From a virus: a DNA stretch of 37,065 nucleotides. Under the pieces are notes generated by a model. It saw nothing but the letters and a program-made list of their open reading frames with translations, made no database searches and was not told where the DNA came from. Shown in pieces: positions 11,204 to 22,747 of this stretch; the first letter of the stretch is position 1, and every line of letters starts with the position of its first letter. Both the position numbers and the translations under genes were made by a program. The stretch is from the IMG/VR virus record IMGVR_UViG_3300025789_000087, positions 1 through 37,065 of that record; one strand, given 5' to 3'.

Positions 11204-11385
11204 TTTTTCTTTTTTGCCGATGTTTTTGCCGGTACTTTAGCCTTACGGGTTGTGGCTTTAACTACAATTTTACGTACCTTATTTGCCGCTTCTGGTGTTG
11301 GGAAAGGCCAAGGTGTAATCTCTTCTTTAGTTGGCTCAAATTTACTTAATGCCCATTTCAAGGCTTTAACTACATGCTTTTTCAT
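11200..11385 (-). CDS. Small basic protein, unknown function
   Basis: The 61-residue protein has a helical start (MKKHVVKALKWALSKFEPT), a middle with proline and tryptophan (ITPWPFPTPEAANKVRK), and a strongly basic alanine/lysine tail (KAKVPAKTSAKKKK) resembling a histone H1-like tail. It has no membrane segment or cysteine. It is linked by 4-base overlaps to the hydroxylase-like gene upstream and to the holin-like gene downstream. I do not recognise a family. Binding to nucleic acid or another polyanion is possible from the charge alone. Confidence 0.6.
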   Translation of the reverse strand: MKKHVVKALKWALSKFEPTKEEITPWPFPTPEAANKVRKIVVKATTRKAKVPAKTSAKKKK

Positions 11386-12164
11386 TTGTGTTTCCCTTTT
11401 GTTATAAAACTCTGTCTTACTGTTTCAAACTTTTCTAATAACTCTGGTTCAATTACTGCCGCATCTACGTTTTTACGGTATTCTAGGGCGTGATTTTTCA
11501 GTTCGGTTATGTCTGCATTATACCGAAAACCCTTAGTTTTGCCTTTAGTATCATAGGCATCGCAGATAATATGGTACCTGTCTTGGTCTGAATCGTTGCG
11601 AATCTGGTGCCAATTATTAACCCAAACTATATAAGCTTTGCCCGCTTGCATATGTAAATGCTGCCCATCTGAAATAAAGACGCATTTAGGATTAGTAATT
11701 AAAGGGATATGGATTCTAGCCATATACTCGCCCCCATCGGCATCTTTATGCACCAAAGACTTAGCCCCAGCTTTTAAGCAGGTAACCCTTACTCTTCTAG
11801 GGTAAAACCCTAAGTCCTCTAGCTGATTTACTATGTACGCAAATTCTCCCACACATGCTTGGGTAGGGTTCTTATGCTCCATAGAGTGCGCAATATCGAA
11901 GAATTTAAGTGCTTTAAAGTTATTATCGTTTTGTGGAAAGTAGATTTCCATCGCTTCTCCGTGGTCATTCTGGAAAAAATCCCAACCATCTCGCCAATCA
12001 CCAGTACGGGAAGTAATAGACCAGCCGCCAAAGCCATGATAAGCCGGTGTTTCATAATCTTCTCCTTGAATAATCTGCTTACCTAAAGGAAATACATGAT
12101 GTTTTAAGTTAAATAAAAGACGTGCATGGTCAATCTTTAAACAGTCAAGCTCTTCGTAAAACAT
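11382..12164 (-). CDS. Aspartyl/asparaginyl beta-hydroxylase-like Fe(II)/2-oxoglutarate oxygenase
   Basis: In this 260-residue protein, residues ~125-205 follow the aspartyl/asparaginyl beta-hydroxylase pattern (PF05118). LVHKDADGG supplies the metal ligands H139 and D141. MARIHIPLITNPKCVF (148-163) is the conserved R-x-HIPL strand. AGKAYIVWVNNWHQIRNDSDQ supplies the distal ligand H186, and R196 in DRYHII is the probable 2-oxoglutarate-binding arginine. The family hydroxylates Asp or Asn side chains in proteins, classically in cysteine-rich EGF-like domains, and some members act on amino acids or small molecules. It is coupled by a TAATG junction to a second oxygenase and is three genes from a radical SAM enzyme and a Cys/Asn-rich virion-like protein. 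The substrate is not shown by the sequence. Confidence 0.85.
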   Translation of the reverse strand: MFYEELDCLKIDHARLLFNLKHHVFPLGKQIIQGEDYETPAYHGFGGWSITSRTGDWRDGWDFFQNDHGEAMEIYFPQNDNNFKALKFFDIAHSMEHKNPTQACVGEFAYIVNQLEDLGFYPRRVRVTCLKAGAKSLVHKDADGGEYMARIHIPLITNPKCVFISDGQHLHMQAGKAYIVWVNNWHQIRNDSDQDRYHIICDAYDTKGKTKGFRYNADITELKNHALEYRKNVDAAVIEPELLEKFETVRQSFITKGKHK

Positions 12165-12730
12165 TATAGATTCCCCGTTTCATGTAACATTTGCTTTACT
12201 TCTTCATAGGTATGCTTATCCGTGCCTAGGGTAATAGCAATGCGTTCTTTTATTGGAAATATGCAATCTACTGCATGAATCTTAGTTACATCTAAAAGCC
12301 AAGCATCTCCAGGCTGGGCAATAAAATTGCCAGTGCAAACCAAATGTTTCTTATCGTATACAAAACCATTAGTTTGATTCTCAACTTGATAAGTTAATAG
12401 TGGCTCAGAATAACTTTCTAGTGGCCTGTAAAACTTGGTAATGCATAGCTCTGGCTGTATATAAAAGTTAATAGTGCATTTAATCTCGCTATCAGTATGC
12501 GGCGGAACAGCATCTTGAATTTTCATAACCGAAACAGTAAAGTCTTCTCTATATCTTCTGGGTATTACGTACAATACCCCACCTTGTTTAATATGGATGT
12601 TATGGTATGAGATAACTTCTCCATAGGAGATTTGCTCTTCTTTTTGGGTGTACTCCAGCTTTTTAAACTTCTGGTTCAGTTTTTGGAACATTTTTCCACA
12701 TTTCATATTGACGAATAATCTCGCAATCAT
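12164..12730 (-). CDS. Second Fe(II)/2-oxoglutarate oxygenase-like protein
   Basis: This protein of up to 188 residues has a double-stranded beta-helix pattern. VPPHTDSEIKCTINFYI contains H78-x-D80. GDAWLLDVTKIHAVDCIFPI contains the distal H152, and R163 in KERIAITLG is the probable 2-oxoglutarate anchor. This H-x-D...H...R layout is that of Fe(II)/2OG dioxygenases. It differs from its neighbour in sequence, so it is not a recent duplicate. The start is uncertain. The longest frame overlaps the upstream gene by 68 bases, and ATGs at codon 9 (12706) and codon 14 (12691) would cut that. No candidate has a good ribosome-binding site. Its role is probably tied to the radical SAM/Cys-rich cassette, by position only. 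Confidence 0.75.
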   Translation of the reverse strand: MIARLFVNMKCGKMFQKLNQKFKKLEYTQKEEQISYGEVISYHNIHIKQGGVLYVIPRRYREDFTVSVMKIQDAVPPHTDSEIKCTINFYIQPELCITKFYRPLESYSEPLLTYQVENQTNGFVYDKKHLVCTGNFIAQPGDAWLLDVTKIHAVDCIFPIKERIAITLGTDKHTYEEVKQMLHETGNL

Positions 12731-12998
12731 GCTCGAAGTCTATACCAGCATGGGGTCTTGCTCTAGCAGCTGCCCAAGGTTTGCCCAAGATATGCTCTAG
12801 GATTGGAATGCCAGAATGGAAAATCTTTTCTAAAACATCCGCATAATCGGTGAGCATTTGGAATAAACGTTCTTTTTCCGGTTGAGATAGCTGAAGAATA
12901 TCGTGACCCATTTGATGGTCAAAATAATGCACAACGTGCTGGCGATAGATGTCAATTTCATTAGGTTCTACTGGTGGGATTTCTGAATTTTCAATCAT
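12663..12998 (-). CDS. Hypothetical acidic helical protein in the modification cassette
   Basis: The 111-residue protein is acidic and predicted to be mostly helical (IDIYRQHVVHYFDHQMGHDI, EKERLFQMLTDYADVLEKIF). A small conserved-looking part around GKPWAAARARPHAGIDFEHD is followed by a short tail. There are several histidines but no clear metal motif, signal peptide or membrane helix. It lies between the Cys-rich protein (4-base overlap) and the second oxygenase. I do not recognise it. Possible roles are an adaptor for the modification enzymes or an unrelated morphogenesis factor. It does not look like the beta-rich winged-helix RiPP recognition element. Confidence 0.6.
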   Translation of the reverse strand: MIENSEIPPVEPNEIDIYRQHVVHYFDHQMGHDILQLSQPEKERLFQMLTDYADVLEKIFHSGIPILEHILGKPWAAARARPHAGIDFEHDCEIIRQYEMWKNVPKTEPEV

Positions 12999-13864
12999 GC
13001 TAATTTACCTTTAAAAGATGATAGTTTTTTATTGCTAGCTACCACGGCAGATGCAGCCCAATGGCTCATCCAAAATAAAGCCCACATAGTCCATAGCGTT
13101 AAGATCCGGTGACCTTTGCGGTGAGGTATATGATCAATGAAACGACTAATAGGCTTCCCAATAGCCATAAGAACCCGACCACGCAAGTTATCATTAGGAC
13201 GAGCTCCCATGAGGTATGCCATGTGTTCAGACCAAGGTATTCCAATACGCAACGCCATTTTTGTAATAGCTTCTTTTTGAGCTGCAGCACGATGTTCTTT
13301 CTTTATCCATAGGAAACAATCTGGACCTTTACCATCCATCCAAGCTGTTACAGTTCTAGCCCAACGTATATATCCTCTATATACTCTTCTGTCGTTTTTA
13401 CGCAGCATTCTACCATAGGCTTGGTCAGCTACCCAGACGTTAGGGTCCATATAGCCTTGTTCGTTTAACTTGGCACAAATAATTTTAGAGCAGTTACATG
13501 CGCAGTTACAGTTGTAAGATACAGGACCTGTTTGGCAATTATAAGTACAAGCAGTACAGTTAGTACCGGTCTGCAAATATGGTTTAGTTTGGCAGTTTAC
13601 GCAATCTACAGTCCCGGCGATGTAGCAGTTAGTACATTGGATATTGCCGCAGTTACAGTTAGATGTGCAGTTACCGTTAGAGCAGTTGCCTTGGTTAGTA
13701 TTTTGGTAATAAGTTAACCCATAGAACGCGGTAAGGCTTGGGGTAGAAACAGGAGTTAGCAATAAGCCATTAAGAAAAGACAAGCTATCTGTATATGTTG
13801 ATGGCTGTCCAATCTCTGTACTAATTTGACTGATTGATATTGTCCCTGAGCTTGGTAATGTCAT
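12995..13864 (-). CDS. Virion-like protein with 16-cysteine segment and helical C-terminal domain
   Basis: This is a 289-residue protein in three parts. Residues 1-52 (MTLPSSGTISISQISTEIG ... LTAFYGLTYY) resemble the short S/T-rich N-terminal modules of phage fibre and structural proteins. Residues 61-130 contain 16 cysteines (61, 66, 70, 72, 77, 80, 88, 91, 103, 106, 110, 119, 121, 123, 125, 130), 11 of them directly preceded by Asn, with CxxC pairs at 77/80, 88/91 and 103/106. From ~131 a helical domain follows (GYMDPNVWVADQAYGRMLRK, RGYIRWARTVTAWMDGKGPD, PWSEHMAYLMGA) and ends in a hydrophobic stretch at about 254-277. It overlaps the radical SAM gene by 4 bases (ATGA), which suggests a matched substrate. 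Metal binding or disulfides are alternatives to enzymatic crosslinking. Confidence 0.8.
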   Translation of the reverse strand: MTLPSSGTISISQISTEIGQPSTYTDSLSFLNGLLLTPVSTPSLTAFYGLTYYQNTNQGNCSNGNCTSNCNCGNIQCTNCYIAGTVDCVNCQTKPYLQTGTNCTACTYNCQTGPVSYNCNCACNCSKIICAKLNEQGYMDPNVWVADQAYGRMLRKNDRRVYRGYIRWARTVTAWMDGKGPDCFLWIKKEHRAAAQKEAITKMALRIGIPWSEHMAYLMGARPNDNLRGRVLMAIGKPISRFIDHIPHRKGHRILTLWTMWALFWMSHWAASAVVASNKKLSSFKGKLA

Positions 13865-15297
13865 GCTGCTACCCTCGATTTTCCATAGATTTCTACGTCG
13901 TCAATTTTGCCAACTACTTCGCTGACTACCTTGATAGGAATAATCTTTTTAATTGGCGTTTCTTCATGTTTAAATATTGTGCCAAATACATCTTGGCGGT
14001 CTAAGGGTAAACCCTCAGCTTTAATTAGTGTGGGTATATACCCAGTCATTTTGTATATAGATAGGGCAAATAGGGCAACATTATCAGAGTATGCATTAGC
14101 GCAAGAGATTTTCCAAAATTTGTTATCGAGGAACATACAAGCTCCTTTGCACAAATGTAAGACAGGACAAGAGGAACATTCAGCACGATTACTCCAATGT
14201 GTAGAAGTTTTAATAGCTACATCCTCATAGGCATCTAAGTTGCCACCTAAATGGGATTTTCCGTTTTTACTTGTTTCTACAGCAGATACGTTTTGACAGG
14301 TAAGAACATTGCCATGCATATCTACAGCCAGCACATGCTCATCATCCATACCGCACTTTTGACCTAAGTACTCGGCGCTAGCATGGGATAGAACCGCATT
14401 GGTAAACTGGTTGATCTTATCTAGCTGCATCTTAAATGCAATGTTGCCGTCCGTAGCAAAGATATCTGTAAAGGCTGTACGGCGGAATGTAAAGTGTTCT
14501 TGCTTGGATTGTAAAGAATTAGTTATGCCATCTTCATCGTAAGCATCCACAATCCCACCTTCACCTAGCGAAATATTAGGATCACCAGTAAGTTCACGGA
14601 ACCAGTCGGATATGGCTTTGCGGCTCTGGTTGTTTTTAGATAGCATCGAGTTAAAGCTAATGTTTTTGTTAAGGCGGGTCATCATGCGATAGAACCCTAG
14701 GATTAACTCTTTCTTTTCTGGGTCATCGAATGGGTCTGGACCTCTAACTGCTTGCCCTGGACCATCGTGTGAAATAGATACAGAAAAGTCTAGCATCATT
14801 AGCCAGTCAATAATCTCTTCAGTCAGGATAGAGCCGTTAGTAATAATAGAGAACTTAGCATAGGGGATTTTCTCCCTGATAGCTTCTGCCAACGGCTTTA
14901 GGGTTTTCCAGTAGACAAGTGGCTCGCCACCCCAGAACTCCACTTTAAGCCCATGCTGCTCATTAAACTCTAGAACCTCAAGCTTTTGTAGAAACGTTGC
15001 TACATCTTTGAATGAGGTTGATTCTGGTCTTTCTACAAACTTCTGCGAGCAGTAATCGCATGAATAGTTACAGCCCAAGCCTAGCTGGATTTTAAGCAGC
15101 TGAATATGTTTGGACTTTTTTAGGGGATGATCTTTATCAAAAGCAGTATACGGCTGATGCGCATGTTGCTGGGCTTGGTCGCCTTCTGGGTATTTAAAAA
15201 CAATCCCGTCCTCGCTCTTGAGGATATTAGTCATGTTGTCGTAGAAAAAAACTTTCTGGTCGGTACTGTTCTTTTCTGCATGGATTTCAAAGAGCAT
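13861..15297 (-). CDS. Radical SAM enzyme with SPASM domain
   Basis: The 478-residue protein has the radical SAM cluster motif C76-x3-C80-x2-C83 (GCNYSCDYC), the SAM-binding WGGEP at 122-126, and SIITNGS (150-156) on a core strand. The C-terminal SPASM region has C315, C334, then C374-x2-C377-x5-C383-x3-C387 and C399, the cysteine layout that binds auxiliary iron-sulfur clusters. SPASM proteins modify peptides or proteins: sulfatase maturation, thioether (sactipeptide/ranthipeptide) links, PQQ or mycofactocin formation. The first ~65 residues are a small N-terminal extension. The gene is joined by a 1-base overlap to a fibre gene and by 4 bases to the Cys-rich gene. All catalytic cysteines are intact. 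The substrate is inferred to be the neighbouring protein. Confidence 0.93.
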   Translation of the reverse strand: MLFEIHAEKNSTDQKVFFYDNMTNILKSEDGIVFKYPEGDQAQQHAHQPYTAFDKDHPLKKSKHIQLLKIQLGLGCNYSCDYCSQKFVERPESTSFKDVATFLQKLEVLEFNEQHGLKVEFWGGEPLVYWKTLKPLAEAIREKIPYAKFSIITNGSILTEEIIDWLMMLDFSVSISHDGPGQAVRGPDPFDDPEKKELILGFYRMMTRLNKNISFNSMLSKNNQSRKAISDWFRELTGDPNISLGEGGIVDAYDEDGITNSLQSKQEHFTFRRTAFTDIFATDGNIAFKMQLDKINQFTNAVLSHASAEYLGQKCGMDDEHVLAVDMHGNVLTCQNVSAVETSKNGKSHLGGNLDAYEDVAIKTSTHWSNRAECSSCPVLHLCKGACMFLDNKFWKISCANAYSDNVALFALSIYKMTGYIPTLIKAEGLPLDRQDVFGTIFKHEETPIKKIIPIKVVSEVVGKIDDVEIYGKSRVAA

Positions 15298-16088
15298 TAT
15301 GGGGTTCCGTATGCGGTTACGTTGCCAAGGGCAATAAAATTACCTGATGAATCTAAAGAGCCTACGTTAGTGCCGTTGTAGTTAAAATAAAGTTTAGTCC
15401 CTGATGGAGTAACGCTCCAGCCACCAGAGTTAGCAATGTTTTTAGCGCTGGCAACAGATGTAATGGCGTTGATTTGGTTGTTTACAAAAGCGGTATTGGC
15501 TGCCTTAGTTGAGCTATCGCCAGTTGACTGAGTTGGTACAGTTGTGGTGCTATTAAAGGTTGCGGTGCCGTTAAAAGTTGCAGTGCCGGTATGGGTGGTT
15601 GTGCCAGTAAAAGTTGAGTTACCAGTAACCCCTAAAGAGCCACCTACTGTTTCATTACCAGTTACAGCCCAGCTACCAGCAGTTCCAGTATTACCGCTAT
15701 AGAAATTAATGCCATCACAATAAACCGTTGCAGTAACGCCGTTAGGGATTGTTACAGTTGAGCCAGTAGTACCACCAATAGTGATTGAATATCCGCCAGT
15801 AGTATTATTAAATACAATGTATTGCTTATTAACTAGTGGGGCAATTACCTGATAAATAGCGCTGTTTGTGCCTTGAATAACCAAAACTGGGTTACGAGCC
15901 TCGTCTAGGGTACCGTTGTAATTTGACAACGAATAGTTGGCATTGGTCATTGTGATGTATTGAACACCAGTAATAGCCTGTTCTAGCAATGCACCTAAGT
16001 TATTATTAGTCGTGTTTCCCCATACTCCAGACTGGTCTCCACTACCGATTAGTTCGAGTTTTAATGATGTTGAGTATGTTGATGCCAT
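15297..16088 (-). CDS. Tail fibre/adhesin-like structural protein
   Basis: The 263-residue protein starts MASTYSTSLKLELIGSGDQSG then VWGNTTNNNLGALLEQAITG, an N-terminus I recognise as common in phage fibre proteins that attach to the tail. Beta-rich G/T/N sequence follows. A short repetitive shaft (GTATFNGTATFNSTTTVP, about 168-185) precedes a helix beginning STKAANTAFV, near 195, typical of fibre linkers, and a small C-terminal beta module (FNYNGTNVGSLDSSGNF). No enzyme motif is visible. It lies between the large repeat-containing adhesin and the radical SAM gene. The fibre role is inferred from composition and context. Confidence 0.8.
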   Translation of the reverse strand: MASTYSTSLKLELIGSGDQSGVWGNTTNNNLGALLEQAITGVQYITMTNANYSLSNYNGTLDEARNPVLVIQGTNSAIYQVIAPLVNKQYIVFNNTTGGYSITIGGTTGSTVTIPNGVTATVYCDGINFYSGNTGTAGSWAVTGNETVGGSLGVTGNSTFTGTTTHTGTATFNGTATFNSTTTVPTQSTGDSSTKAANTAFVNNQINAITSVASAKNIANSGGWSVTPSGTKLYFNYNGTNVGSLDSSGNFIALGNVTAYGTP

Positions 16089-16097
16089 GTTTTATCC

Positions 16098-19000
16098 TTA
16101 TGGATAGTTGTTATTAACTTTAGTCCAAACTACTGTTTGTCCGTCATTGATATCTGTCCAAACTGCTGTATTTCCGTTGTTTACTGCGTTCCATGAACCC
16201 GTTTGGCTATCATCAATTTTAAACCAACCACGTGGGAATGGGCTATCTAATAATACCAAATTCTCGGCTATTTGACTACTAAACGAAGCGATAACGGTAA
16301 TTGAATCGGCTGGAACTAAGTTTTCTGAAATAAGTCCTGCAAAGACCGCCTTAACCGTCTCGGCATCAGCTACAGAAAGGTTTTCGGTAATAGCGGAATT
16401 AAAGATTTTTACTACTACGCTGGAATCAGCTGCAGTCAGCGCTTCGGAAATACTGGATGCAAAGCTGGCTAATACCACCTCAATATCCGCAATACTACTA
16501 CCCTCAGACACAGCAACAGCAAAATTAGCCGCTACAGACTCGGTTTCAGCAATGCCAACCCCTTCAAAAATTAAGCTGGCAAAGGTGGCTACGACTGTTT
16601 GGGAGTCGGCTAGGGTTATAGCTTCAGAAATATTGGTACTAAAAACAAGAGAAACTGATTGAGCATCAGCTAAAGTAGCAGCCTCGGTAATCAATGCTGC
16701 AAAAGCAGCTACGGCAGACTCGGTATCGGCAATTTGAGTATCTTCGCTAATTACGGCAGCAAAGTTGGCTACCCCTGTTTCGGTGTCAGCTAGGATTACG
16801 GGTTCTGTTATGGTTGGGGCAAAAAGCCCTATTCCTGTTTCTGTATCGTCTAAGTTAGCGTTTTCTGTAATTGCTGCGACAAAAGCGGTTACTACTGTTT
16901 CTAAATCAGCTACGGATAAAGCCTCGGAAATCGCTGCCGAGAATGTGGCGATTAAAGATTCTGTGTCTTCTTCCGCAAGGATGGCTTCTGTAATAGATAC
17001 TGAGAACGTAGCAATTAAAGACTCAATATCTTCTTCTGCCAGAATAGCTTCAGTAATGGCGGTAATAAAGCTAGCTACAGCTGATGGGGTATCGTCTGGG
17101 TTTATATTTTCAGATATAGCACTAGCAAAGGCAGCTACTACATCTTGCGTGTCCGCAACAGTTAAGGCTTCAGAAACAGTATAAGCAAAGGTAGCTAGGA
17201 CAGACTCGGAGTCAGCTAGAGTATTGGGTTCTGAGATTTGCGTAGAAAATGAGGCAGCGGCTGATTCTGCATCGCTTATGGTATAAGTTTCAGAAATTGC
17301 GCTGTTAAATGAAGCAGTTACCGATTCAGTGTCGGCTATGTTTGCGTTTTCGGATATAGCGCTTAAAAAAGCTGCAATTACAGTTTGGGTATCAGCAATC
17401 CCAGCGTTTTCAGTAATGGCTCCAGCAAAAGCGGTTACAACCGACTGCGCATCAGCAATATTTAAGGCTTCTGTTATAGCAGATGAGAATGTTGCAATTA
17501 AAGACTCAGTGTCGGTTTCCGCTGTAATAGCTTCGGTAATAGCTACGCTAAATGTTGCAATTAAAGATTCGGTATCAGCTTCGGAAAGAATTGCCTCGGA
17601 TATAGCCGCAGCAAAAGCAGCTATGATGGACTCGGTGTCACCTGCTGTTATGGCTTCTGAAATAGAAGATGCAAAAATTGTAGCTGCATTAGGGGTATCT
17701 GTTAAATTTGTGCTTTCAGATACGCTATTATTGTTAAAAGTTGCGTTACCTACGTTGCTGTCCGCTAAGGTATTGTCTTCTGATATATCCGAGTTAAATG
17801 AAGCGGTTGTAGTTGGGGTATCAGCTAGGGTGTTCGATTCAGAAATGTTGCTTGAGAAACTAGCTAGTACAGACATTAAGTCTGCAATAGTAAACGCTTC
17901 TGTAATAGCTCCTGTATAAGCCGTTCCAAAACTATAAATAATAAAGATTGCGCCTTGGGACCCAGCACCGCCAGCAGTTACGGCGCCAAGAGCGGTTGCT
18001 CCACCCCCTGACCCACCGCCACCATATAAACCCGTATTTGAAGTACCAGCTCCATATCCGCTGCCTCCAGCGCCACCTGCTCCGCCCACCGTATTAGCAA
18101 TGTCTACTCCCGAACCACCCAAGGTACCAGAAGCTCCGTTACTGCCTCCAGCGCCACCACCACCAAGTTTTCCGTTTCCAGTTCCTGACCCGCCACCAGT
18201 TCCACTAAAATTATTACCGCCCGAACCGCCACCACTCCCTAGAGCGTTGCCGCCAGTAGAACCTCCGCCGTTACCACCTCCGCCTCCGCCAGCTACGGTT
18301 GCAGTAGTGCTACTATCTCCGTTACCGCCTTTACCACCTCCTCCGTTGGGACCTCCAGCGCCACCACCACCACCAGAACCAGTATATGTAAAAGTGACTG
18401 TTGTAGTAGCGCCAGCACCGCCAGCACCGCCAACAAAAGTTCCTGTGCCACCAGCACCGCCCGCAGATGTTGGAGTTGTAGTTGCCGTTCCTTTTTGACC
18501 TCCACCAGCAATATTAGTTGTATTAAAAGTGGTGTTTCCGCCGTTAGTATCAGCCGCCCCGCCAGAACCGATTGCATAAGGTATTGATGCCCCAACAGTT
18601 AATGATTGGTTAGATAAGCGCCTATAACCACCACCACCGCCGCCGCCACCACCAGCTTGAGTGCTTGCGGATGATACGCTAGTTGCTCCTCCCCCTCCCC
18701 CTCCAATTAAATAAATTGAGTTGTTGCTATTATTCCAACCAGAAGGGACGGTCCAAGAAGTTCCTGAGGTTAATAAATACGCCGTATTGGATGTTGGTTG
18801 AAACAATATGCCAGCATTATTACCGCCATTTGTAGAGCTTACACCACCATAAACAAGGTAAGGATTTGATGGGCCTAAAGTATAGGAAAAGTTAATATCA
18901 GTAATGGACATATAGTCCATAGATATTGTTCCACTACCTGTGTAAATAAATGTTCTTTGTGTTCCTACAACAGATGAGTTTACAGTTACTATATTTCCAG

Positions 19001-20078
19001 CAGTTCCAGTTATAGTCCAGTTGTTTATGCGTGTTCCGTTTGCAGTATTTGTGATTGTGTGGGCTACTGTTTTTGTACTTGCTAATGTTCCTATAGTTGC
19101 TGTTGTATTTGCAAAAGTTGTTGTTGATGTTGCAGTTGCACCACCAATAGTCAAAGTATTATAAGTTAAACTACCGCCAGAAAATTGTCTGCTAGTTGTT
19201 GAGTTATTACTTAAAATAATATTGGGGCTAGCAGTAAATGTAAGTCCCGTTGTTGTGGTTGTATCCCAAACAATACCAGTACCACTTAATGACCAAGTGC
19301 CAGAACCCATAGTTAAGGTTCTTGTGTTGGAGTTTGTACTACTAAATAATCCGACAGTTACGTTCTTATTATTAGCGTCAAATGTGCCGTTGGTTAAGGT
19401 TAAAGTCCTTGTAGAACCTAGTATTAAGTCGTCTACTAACTGAATTGTGCCACCAACTCCGTTAATAGTAATTGGAAAGTCTAGTGTTTTATTATTGCTA
19501 GTAATTGTTTGTGTGCCTGATGTGGCGGCAAAAGTTGTAGTATTTGCACCGCCAGTCAAAGTCATTCCTGTGGAAATAATTAAATTTCCATATATTGTTC
19601 TAGTAGAGTTTACAAGTGTTCCACTAAAGCCAGTAAGGTCTAAATTTTTTATGCTTGAGCTTATTGTTAAAGAGCCAGTACCAGCTGTAACATTAAAACT
19701 AATAGCATTAGCTTCTGTAACTGCGGCAGGAACTATTGTTTTTGAAGCTGTACTTGAATCTGTGCAATTAATTACTGGTGTTCCTGTTACAGAATAATTT
19801 GTTGCTCCTGTAAATATTGTTGCTGTACCAGCTAATGAAATATTCTGTGTGCCAAATGCTAATGTTCCTGTAAACCCTGTCATTGTCAGAGTTGAAATAG
19901 TGGGGTTATAACCGCTACCTAAAGTAACAGTATTAGCACCTGAATTGGCATCAAAGAAAACAGTATCAGCAGAAGTAGGGACAGCTTGACCACCAGCACC
20001 ACCAGTAGTCAATGCCCATTTAGAACCAGCAGTAGCATCCCAAGATGCAGTTCCACCAACCCAATATCTAGCCGCCAT
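16098..20078 (-). CDS. Giant tail adhesin with glycine-rich region and ~20-residue repeats (copy A)
   Basis: This 1326-residue protein is the largest complete gene here. Its N-terminus (MAARYWVGGTASWDA, PTSADTVFFDANSG) and a beta-helix-like T/N/G region run to about residue 430. A PSGWNNSNNSIYLIGGGGGG segment then opens a very glycine-rich part (436-715). About 27 full copies of a ~20-residue repeat (consensus SAISEALTIADTESVVATF) follow, and a short W/N-rich end closes with several TxxW units. Glycine-rich polyGly tips and long repeats are typical of receptor-binding adhesins on tails. It is paralogous to the gene at 20249-22747. The gene overlaps the small upstream gene by a TAATG junction. 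Adhesin function is inferred. Confidence 0.85.
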   Translation of the reverse strand: MAARYWVGGTASWDATAGSKWALTTGGAGGQAVPTSADTVFFDANSGANTVTLGSGYNPTISTLTMTGFTGTLAFGTQNISLAGTATIFTGATNYSVTGTPVINCTDSSTASKTIVPAAVTEANAISFNVTAGTGSLTISSSIKNLDLTGFSGTLVNSTRTIYGNLIISTGMTLTGGANTTTFAATSGTQTITSNNKTLDFPITINGVGGTIQLVDDLILGSTRTLTLTNGTFDANNKNVTVGLFSSTNSNTRTLTMGSGTWSLSGTGIVWDTTTTTGLTFTASPNIILSNNSTTSRQFSGGSLTYNTLTIGGATATSTTTFANTTATIGTLASTKTVAHTITNTANGTRINNWTITGTAGNIVTVNSSVVGTQRTFIYTGSGTISMDYMSITDINFSYTLGPSNPYLVYGGVSSTNGGNNAGILFQPTSNTAYLLTSGTSWTVPSGWNNSNNSIYLIGGGGGGATSVSSASTQAGGGGGGGGGYRRLSNQSLTVGASIPYAIGSGGAADTNGGNTTFNTTNIAGGGQKGTATTTPTSAGGAGGTGTFVGGAGGAGATTTVTFTYTGSGGGGGAGGPNGGGGKGGNGDSSTTATVAGGGGGGNGGGSTGGNALGSGGGSGGNNFSGTGGGSGTGNGKLGGGGAGGSNGASGTLGGSGVDIANTVGGAGGAGGSGYGAGTSNTGLYGGGGSGGGATALGAVTAGGAGSQGAIFIIYSFGTAYTGAITEAFTIADLMSVLASFSSNISESNTLADTPTTTASFNSDISEDNTLADSNVGNATFNNNSVSESTNLTDTPNAATIFASSISEAITAGDTESIIAAFAAAISEAILSEADTESLIATFSVAITEAITAETDTESLIATFSSAITEALNIADAQSVVTAFAGAITENAGIADTQTVIAAFLSAISENANIADTESVTASFNSAISETYTISDAESAAASFSTQISEPNTLADSESVLATFAYTVSEALTVADTQDVVAAFASAISENINPDDTPSAVASFITAITEAILAEEDIESLIATFSVSITEAILAEEDTESLIATFSAAISEALSVADLETVVTAFVAAITENANLDDTETGIGLFAPTITEPVILADTETGVANFAAVISEDTQIADTESAVAAFAALITEAATLADAQSVSLVFSTNISEAITLADSQTVVATFASLIFEGVGIAETESVAANFAVAVSEGSSIADIEVVLASFASSISEALTAADSSVVVKIFNSAITENLSVADAETVKAVFAGLISENLVPADSITVIASFSSQIAENLVLLDSPFPRGWFKIDDSQTGSWNAVNNGNTAVWTDINDGQTVVWTKVNNNYP
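16236..17921 (-). repeat. Array of ~28 degenerate ~60-bp coding repeats
   Basis: Within the copy-A adhesin, 27 full units and one partial unit of about 20 residues follow one another. Nearly every unit has I(S/T)E near the start, an AD or ADT(E/Q)S core and a closing phenylalanine (VATF, VAAF). Three neighbouring pairs carry an extra residue and read EAILAEEDTESLIATF-like, so they look like recent local copies. Most units differ by several residues, so the array is old and under protein-level selection. It is not a CRISPR or a tandem DNA satellite. Confidence 0.9.
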
Positions 20079-20248: not shown

Positions 20249-22747
20249 TTATTGTCGGTTATCTACTTGGACCCATTGGGTGTTTTCGGTGTTATCTAAA
20301 ATACTCCAACCATACCCCATTGTAACTTCTAACATATTTATGTTTTCCACTTCGGATACTCTGAAGGTAGCAGTAGTGCTAGATACCTCATTAGAAGTAA
20401 CATTTTCTGATATTAGCACGTTAAAAGTAAGTATTATACTTTCAGAATCGGCTGTACTTACTGGTTCTGAAATAGCGGCTATTAATATTTTGGTTACTAG
20501 CTCTGTATCTGTTAAAGCTGTGGGCTCAGTAATACTAGAAACAAATCCAGCGGCCACACTTTCTATGTCTAGTATGGAGCTACTTTCTACAATACTAGAA
20601 ACAAAAGATGTTACAACAGTGTTTGTATCAGCAGATTGAAAGTTTTCTGTGACATTTGCATTGGCATTAAATACGGTTGTTACTATATCCGTTGGTTGAA
20701 AGTCCTCCGTAATATTTGCGTTAGTATTCCATGTAGTTGTTAATAAGTCAGCAGTTTGAAAGCTTTCCGTAATAGCGCTATTAAAAATTAATAAACTATT
20801 TTGTAAATCAGATATTGTGCTTGGTTCTACTATGCTTACTAATATTGACGGCGTATAAATAATAAAAATTACACCTTGAGAACCAGCAGATGAGGCAGCT
20901 GTAACTCCTGCTGTGCTTATAGCTCCACCTGCACCGCCGCCGCCATACAAACCTAAATTAACAGTAGTACCATCACCGCCTTTACCACCGCCGCCACCTA
21001 AGGTATTTGCAATGTCTATACCTGAACCACCATTACCACCAGTATAAGGGCCGCCAGCACCTCCCCCACCGCCGCCAAGCGTTCCATTTCCAGCTGCAAC
21101 AAGGGGCGTATTTGTGCCACCTGTACCACCACCTGTTCCGTTAAAATTGTTTCCGCCCCCTCCTCCTACTGAGGACGAACCGTTTGCTCCATTACTGCCG
21201 CCACCATTACCACCGCCACCCCCACCACCTATATTAGCGTCAATAGTTACAGAACCAAATCCATTCCCTCCATTACCACCTATTCCGTTAGGTCCTCCGG
21301 CACCGCCGCCTCCGCCACCACCATAAGCTAAACTAGCAGTTGTTCCAAAAGTACCAGCACCACCTGCACCACCTGCATAAGTTCCAGTACCGCCAGCACC
21401 ACCAGAAGAGCTAGGAGTTGTTGTAGCATTGCCTTTTAAACCACCGCCTGCCGTTGTTGCCCCACTATTCCATGTAGTATCACCACCATTAGCATTAAGA
21501 ACAGAGGTGCCAATTTGATAATTAACTGTACTTGTTGGAGTTAAAGATTGATTAGTTAAAACTGTATATCCACCACCGCCTCCTCCTCCGCCTGCTGCTC
21601 TGTTGTTTCCTGATACCGCCGCACTTCCACCGCCGCCACCAGCTCCAATCATATGAATAGTGTTATTTGTATTATTCCAATCGGATGGTACTGTCCAAGT
21701 TGTCCCTGTGGTTAATAAATAGGCTTTAACTGTAGTTGGCTGAAATAATATTCCTGAAGTATTTCCGTTATTTGTAGAATGTGAACCAGCATACCAAACG
21801 TATGGTTGTGTTGCAGATGGTGCGGGGGTGAAAGTAACGTTGTTGGCAGCAATATAGTCCATAGAGACTACGCCACTACCAGTATAGTTAACAACTGGCG
21901 AAGTTCCGGAATTAGCTTGAATAGAAACTAAATTTCCCGCAGTTCCGCTTACTGACCAGTTATTAACTGTGTTTGTAGTACCGGTATTAAATTGAATAAT
22001 ACTTGGTACTGTTTTATTGCATATAAGACTGTTTACATTAATTGAACTAAGTATGTAGTTATTAGATACTGAAGATAACCCTAGCTGTAAAGTTCCAAAT
22101 AAATAATTGCTTAAAAGTACTCCAGTTGAAGCATAAATTGTATTGCCGATAAAAATAGTACATGCTGCACCATTTACCGTATTACCTAAATTAAATAAAA
22201 TACACGTTCCATAATTGTTTACACTAATTGTAGAAGTACCAAAATTATATGTTGACCCCGTACCCGTTGTATAAAATGTTCCACCAGTAAAATTGTAATT
22301 ATTAGTGGTAAATGAAGTACCAGTTATAGTAAGAAATGCAGTATTAGGTATTGTTAAATTACTTCCTAGCTGAATAGTCCCACCAGAAGTATTTAAAGTA
22401 ACTGCACACGACAATGCCACATTATTTGTAGTTATGGTAGCTGATGCAGTAAAAGTAAGTAAACCTGTTGCAGACCAAACTGTAGTTGAAGATAAAGTAA
22501 AATTACCAGCACAAGATATTGTGCCAGTTGAACTAAAAGTAAACGATGAGCCGGTTGTATCTATGCTAGTGCAATTAAGCGCACCAGTTAAAGTAACTGT
22601 GCCTGTGCCTGAATTGGCATCAAAGAAAACAGCATCAGTAGAAGTCGGTACGGATGCGCCACTACCACCGCCTGACGAAGCAGACCAGTGTGTAGTAGAT
22701 GAGGCATCCCAAGTACCGGAGCCACCAACCCAGTAACGGTTAGCCAT
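20249..22747 (-). CDS. Tail adhesin with glycine-rich region and repeats (copy B)
   Basis: The 832-residue paralogue of the 1326-residue adhesin has the same order. The N-terminus is MANRYWVGGSGTWDA and PTSTDAVFFDANSG, followed by a T/N-rich beta region to about 340. PSDWNNTNNTIHMIGAGGGG then opens a glycine-rich region to about 630. About nine shorter units of the ~20-residue repeat follow (I(T/S)E...AD...F), and a W-rich end closes with WSILDNTENTQWVQVDN. It probably forms an alternative or companion receptor-binding protein. It carries far fewer repeats than copy A, so array length has changed since duplication. The preceding small gene overlaps it by TAATG. Confidence 0.85.
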   Translation of the reverse strand: MANRYWVGGSGTWDASSTTHWSASSGGGSGASVPTSTDAVFFDANSGTGTVTLTGALNCTSIDTTGSSFTFSSTGTISCAGNFTLSSTTVWSATGLLTFTASATITTNNVALSCAVTLNTSGGTIQLGSNLTIPNTAFLTITGTSFTTNNYNFTGGTFYTTGTGSTYNFGTSTISVNNYGTCILFNLGNTVNGAACTIFIGNTIYASTGVLLSNYLFGTLQLGLSSVSNNYILSSINVNSLICNKTVPSIIQFNTGTTNTVNNWSVSGTAGNLVSIQANSGTSPVVNYTGSGVVSMDYIAANNVTFTPAPSATQPYVWYAGSHSTNNGNTSGILFQPTTVKAYLLTTGTTWTVPSDWNNTNNTIHMIGAGGGGGSAAVSGNNRAAGGGGGGGGYTVLTNQSLTPTSTVNYQIGTSVLNANGGDTTWNSGATTAGGGLKGNATTTPSSSGGAGGTGTYAGGAGGAGTFGTTASLAYGGGGGGGAGGPNGIGGNGGNGFGSVTIDANIGGGGGGGNGGGSNGANGSSSVGGGGGNNFNGTGGGTGGTNTPLVAAGNGTLGGGGGGAGGPYTGGNGGSGIDIANTLGGGGGKGGDGTTVNLGLYGGGGAGGAISTAGVTAASSAGSQGVIFIIYTPSILVSIVEPSTISDLQNSLLIFNSAITESFQTADLLTTTWNTNANITEDFQPTDIVTTVFNANANVTENFQSADTNTVVTSFVSSIVESSSILDIESVAAGFVSSITEPTALTDTELVTKILIAAISEPVSTADSESIILTFNVLISENVTSNEVSSTTATFRVSEVENINMLEVTMGYGWSILDNTENTQWVQVDNRQ
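20318..20850 (-). repeat. Short array of ~9 degenerate ~60-bp coding repeats
   Basis: Units of about 20 residues related to those in copy A run from VSIVEPSTISDLQ to EVENINMLEV. The first units share ITE(S/D/N)FQ(T/P/S)(A/T)D, a local sub-family, and later units return to the ISEP...ADSES form. Confidence 0.85.

Follow-up and report, generated by a model that had tools for sequence, protein, structure and literature searches.

Across diverse phages, a radical SAM/SPASM enzyme accompanies a protein that carries an Asn-Cys-rich segment, a pairing that is well supported by searches made in both directions. We propose, with moderate confidence, that the locus described here is a phage protein-modification module in which the SPASM enzyme thioether-crosslinks the Asn-Cys segment of a likely tail part. 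The stretch analysed (the window) comprises the 37,065 bases of a virus record and has matches to portal-like, head, internal virion and tail proteins. As the preliminary description had stated, five genes form an overlapping chain; all five ORFs are intact and lie on the minus strand, with overlaps of 1, 68, 4 and 4 bases from position 11382 to 15297. They encode the radical SAM/SPASM enzyme (P0002, 478 amino acids (aa), 13861..15297), the Cys-rich protein that is its proposed substrate (P0001, 289 aa, 12995..13864), a small protein (P0005, 111 aa, 12663..12998) conserved in the window's clade (124 of 149 closely related loci and 0 elsewhere), a predicted 2OG/Fe(II) oxygenase (P0003, 188 aa, 12164..12730) and an aspartyl/asparaginyl beta-hydroxylase-like oxygenase (P0004, 260 aa, 11382..12164). 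The gene upstream of the chain (P0006, 263 aa, 15297..16088, minus strand) has weak tail fibre similarity (phrog_31104, E = 5.9 × 10−14; phrog_12796, tail fiber, E = 2.2 × 10−5). Window positions 16098-20078 and 20249-22747 each encode a very large protein rich in Gly, and the former ends in a C-terminal part built as a long succession of ISE...AD-type repeats that are related to one another.

The enzyme belongs to the radical SAM superfamily (Pfam PF04055, E = 2.9 × 10−11, 44.3 bits against a cut-off of 29.5) and matched the PHROG_1802 family (E = 1.9 × 10−60). Its cluster motif, C76-x3-C80-x2-C83 (CNYSCDYC; 15049..15072, minus strand), and the seven Cys of its SPASM region (C315, C334, C374, C377, C383, C387 and C399; 14101..14355, minus strand) were kept throughout a 17-sequence alignment, and the ten cluster Cys columns were kept in 28/28 representatives of the enzyme family at 60% identity, which bears out the full Cys set read earlier from the sequence. 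The seven-Cys set places the enzyme in the SPASM/twitch subfamily, and the TIGR04085 SPASM model matched 16 of the 17 family members. Among NCBIfam models, the best-scoring was that of the PapB family, a thioether former (1.1 × 10−30); this ranthipeptide maturase model (NF047865) matched 17/17 family members, all below its cut-off (76.9 bits for P0002 against 340). P0002 likewise fell outside the QhpD family (TIGR03906; 77.3 bits, cut-off 453) and the anaerobic sulfatase maturases (TIGR03942; 46.6 bits, cut-off 349), and the CcpM and SCIFF maturase models also matched, well under their cut-offs, as did cyclophane-former models, again sub-cut-off. In a PDB profile search, the closest entries were 8vpo, 5wgg (which we take to be CteB) and a sulfatase-maturing enzyme (the last with E = 4.1 × 10−20). 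The family ranges over viral contigs, Achromobacter phages and Proteobacteria genome contigs.

In the proposed substrate, P0001, a span of 70 residues contains 16 Cys, the same count as first reported, many with Asn directly before them. Its Cys-rich segment (residues 58-130; 13475..13693, minus strand), the proposed target of modification, was unstructured and of low confidence in an AlphaFold model. Among 21 homologues, TGT and TGC codons swap freely in this segment and the Cys is retained, with a ratio of amino-acid to synonymous differences of 0.26 for Cys, approximately 1.0 for the segment's other residues and 1.5 for the flanking domains; because the Cys are kept despite free codon swapping, the segment is under (purifying) selection. 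The segment is followed by a helical C-terminal domain with a hydrophobic last helix (residues 128-289; 12998..13483, minus strand), modelled with pLDDT mostly >80 and 31.5% identical to a protein of Synechococcus phage SynMITS9220M01. In the latter protein (locus L153, 4669-6519), a long run of poly-proline and poly-arginine stands at the place of the Cys-rich segment. Fold comparison of the C-terminal domain with the PDB gave a best Z of 4.6, uninformative for a helical bundle, and a PDB sequence search with P0001 returned a weak match alone (E = 0.027). The first 55 residues, previously described as resembling a tail-protein N-terminus, had no match in Pfam, PHROG or phage searches, and that resemblance was not confirmed.

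Elsewhere, Asn-Cys runs of the form (NC)n are found mostly at protein C termini, and the P0001 segment is the counterpart of these C-terminal tags. In 72 non-redundant tags (from loci L100 and above), Asn preceded 72% of Cys, against a background of 8.7%, and a Cys-Cys spacing of two was the commonest (381 gaps of 2). No more than five residues followed the last Cys in 52 of the 72; the remainder, which are window-like, run on for 160 to 213 residues. One representative tagged protein from outside the window matched tail fibre families, and a homologue of central tail fibre J (gpJ) lay upstream in 29 of 93 non-redundant loci. In five loci (L407, L466, L467, L470 and L151), a Hint-like domain (CFPAGTxVxMADG) directly follows the Asn-Cys-type run; such a domain could self-cleave, leaving the tag C-terminal.

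Co-occurrence of the SPASM enzyme and the Cys-rich protein, suggested at the outset as a check on their association, held in both directions and with controls. When P0001 and P0002 were searched against viral contigs, 149 close loci were obtained, 147 with the Cys-rich homologue and 146 with the enzyme; by tblastn, each was found in 148 of 150 loci, window included. In two exceptions (L089 and L119), the sequence ends <300 bases from the enzyme. The Cys-rich gene usually starts ≤75 bases downstream of the enzyme gene, with a gene intervening in some close loci; a further group instead has a short Cys-rich gene placed before the enzyme. These loci were picked by homology to either gene and are closely related, so this set alone cannot prove dependence.

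A tag-first search was made without reference to the enzyme, using viral-contig DNA encoding NCNCNCNC, that is (Asn-Cys)4, and yielded 120 stretches, in 104 of which the motif lay inside an open frame. The enzyme was present in the fetched stretch for 74 of these 104 loci, on the same strand in 74/74 and downstream in 72/74, and the tag ended ≤12 residues from the C terminus in 71 of the 74. By comparison, the enzyme was found in 0/16 of the (NC)4 DNA matches outside an open frame and in 0/120 (NS)4 control stretches (Fisher P ≈ 7 × 10−26, a value that is uncorrected for relatedness and overstates independence, as related phages recur). The (AC)4 control stretches gave 2/56, both of which had genuine Asn-Cys-type tags. 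Where at least 3 kb was available downstream, 65 (NC)4 loci had the enzyme and 5 lacked it, and a whole-record search of 30 enzyme-negative (NC)4 records recovered 14 strong matches and one weak match. The enzyme HMM was partly built from tag-search loci, which affects the detection of relatives and not their position. Enzymes from the first 80 (NC)4 loci formed 29 groups at 90% identity and 15 at 60%. A chance or artefactual origin of the pairing was considered and ruled out by the (NS)4, out-of-frame and (AC)4 controls.

In the reverse direction, the enzyme alignment alone was searched against genome contigs, giving 79 loci that included Polynucleobacter, Limnohabitans, Paraburkholderia, Burkholderia paludis, Bradyrhizobium, Thalassobius and Magnetospirillum. 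An (xC)4 frame was present on the enzyme strand in 55/79, compared with 6/79 on the opposite strand and 8/120 control loci, and about 7 further genome loci had weaker tags. When enzymes were clustered at 60% identity, leaving out loci fetched by the tag pattern, a same-strand tag accompanied 28 of the 34 clusters, against 1/34 for the opposite strand; this is the stricter of two counts, a looser one based on Cys density having been discarded because GC-rich shadow frames inflate Cys density. The Asn-Cys-type tag was absent from some loci of outlying enzyme relatives on bacterial contigs. Four such relatives (L457, L461, L462 and L463) lie near a small protein and one of approximately 520 to 813 residues, with a DC-containing SPP-type motif common to three of the four, possibly a separate peptide-modification cassette.

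Both oxygenases of the window retain the HxD...H...R sets that had been recognized in them: H78-x-D80, H152 and R163 were kept in 23/23 P0003 homologues, and H139-x-D141, H186 and R196 in 19/19 P0004 homologues. P0004 is a member of PF05118 (43.9 bits, cut-off 22.6). P0003 had no Pfam match, and a PDB sequence search found nothing convincing for it; its AlphaFold model (pLDDT 90.6), a double-stranded beta-helix, aligned best to 2OG oxygenases, led by proline 3-hydroxylase (Z = 10.3), and these model matches, along with the invariant residues, identify it as a predicted 2OG/Fe(II) oxygenase. P0003 was present in 111 and P0004 in 112 of the 119 close loci with room for them, and homologues of either in 0/199 of the other tag or enzyme loci examined; since they are confined to the window's clade, the oxygenases are accessory and not part of the core. 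A different 2OG family, PF13759-like and absent from the window, occurred near the enzyme in 36/120 tag loci and 40/79 genome loci, against 2/120 in each of two controls. A conserved partner of approximately 290 residues (for example, L195, 4013-4879) is encoded immediately upstream of the enzyme in 48/93 non-redundant loci; it was found in 66/120 tag loci versus 1/240 controls, with a marginal PHROG tail match and no Pfam match. A fatty acid desaturase-like gene (PF00487; for example, L105, 9449-10171) was also seen near the enzyme in 10/93 non-redundant and 45/149 close loci.

From these observations, we suggest that the SPASM enzyme would act on the Asn-Cys-rich segment of the adjacent protein, probably a tail-fibre or tail-tip part, joining Cys sulphur to carbons of nearby residues, often Asn, as in NxxcA and QhpD. 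The thioether-linked segment would be rigid and could not be reduced, which may serve to stiffen it, and in the window's clade the two 2OG oxygenases would probably hydroxylate this protein or a neighbour of it. Action of the enzyme on the tag seems very probable to us, and the modified protein is likely to sit in the virion, more so for the tagged tail fibres found elsewhere than for P0001 of the window; the product is slightly more likely than not a thioether, such links fitting because the nearest named enzyme families include thioether-forming maturases. The preliminary description had one or more of the neighbouring enzymes modifying the Cys-rich segment; two-way co-occurrence strongly supports the pairing of the SPASM enzyme with the Cys-rich protein as its likely substrate, and the case is weaker for the clade-limited oxygenases. 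More tentatively, the pairing may represent a system, widespread among phages, that turns a portable C-terminal (Asn-Cys)n tail-fibre tag into a dense thioether-linked, possibly chain-joining, tip, receptor-binding or stabilising and of a kind not known from viruses before, with oxygenases optional.

Among the alternatives, the strongest, though we consider it unlikely, is that the tag is modified to a product other than a thioether, whether by conversion of Cys to formylglycine, by epimerisation or by a carbon-carbon link. A sulfatase-maturing enzyme is among the PDB profile matches (E = 4.1 × 10−20), the homologue in phage JWF is annotated likewise, and the seven-Cys SPASM set of P0002 is presumably that of the sulfatase-maturing enzyme; the sub-cut-off matches to cyclophane formers point the same way. 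However, the sulfatase motif is C/S-x-P-x-R, and no such motif is visible in the tag, the top NCBIfam model (PapB) is a thioether former, and many Cys at regular spacing fit crosslinking better. It is improbable, in our view, that the (NC)n segment is instead a metal-binding tip and the enzyme targets another residue or protein: metal-binding histidines occur at phage fibre tips, the terminal position of the tag would suit a fibre tip and its dominant CxC spacing recalls the CxC motifs of metallothionein, but the close tracking of enzyme and tag would be left unexplained. Phage tail regions do gather cargo genes, and 2OG oxygenases are common in phages, yet with the enzyme in none of the 120 (NS)4 loci, on the tag strand in 74 of 74 and with a tag in 28 of 34 clusters, we regard it as highly improbable that an unrelated auxiliary gene for the enzyme has come to lie in tail clusters by coincidence. 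Thioether crosslinking of the tag is our preferred reading.

If correct, this reading would mean that tailed phages make part of their particle by radical chemistry, for which we found no description in the literature. It would also provide a large natural set of enzyme-tag pairs, some of them from bacteria in culture and from two Achromobacter phages with sequenced genomes, which makes the chemistry directly testable; a short portable tag crosslinked by an enzyme would be useful for protein engineering.

A limited literature search, covering phage proteins with NCNCNC runs and the modification of tails by radical SAM enzymes, returned nothing relevant, in agreement with the earlier statement that no phage system of this form had been described. 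Among the closest known systems is the PHROG_1802 radical SAM domain-containing protein of Achromobacter phages JWF and 2-1, which belongs to the same enzyme family (45% identity) and whose function the phage records do not describe. Two genes before the enzyme, these phages encode a tail-fibre-like protein with a tag (NCNCDCNCNCSC); unlike the window, they have a Hint-like domain after the tag and no P0003 or P0004 homologue. P0004, scoring above the Pfam cut-off for PF05118, resembles the AspH family, and AspH acts on EGF-like domains. In bacteria, the QhpD system for the QHNDH gamma subunit (QhpC) offers a parallel, in which a SPASM radical SAM enzyme modifies a Cys-containing protein of its own operon, forming intra-protein Cys-to-acid thioethers (PMC8172795); it differs in being a non-phage system for bacterial enzyme maturation, with three links to Asp/Glu and without an (NC)n tag. 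The ranthipeptide pairs PapB/freyrasin and NxxcB/NxxcA are also alike in using a SPASM enzyme, theirs forming S-Cbeta bonds with Asp or Asn residues (PMC11002830, PMC8326336), with a Cys-Asn S-Cbeta link in NxxcA (PMC8326336). Their substrates, however, are small peptides, whereas the phage protein that carries the tag here is large and probably structural.
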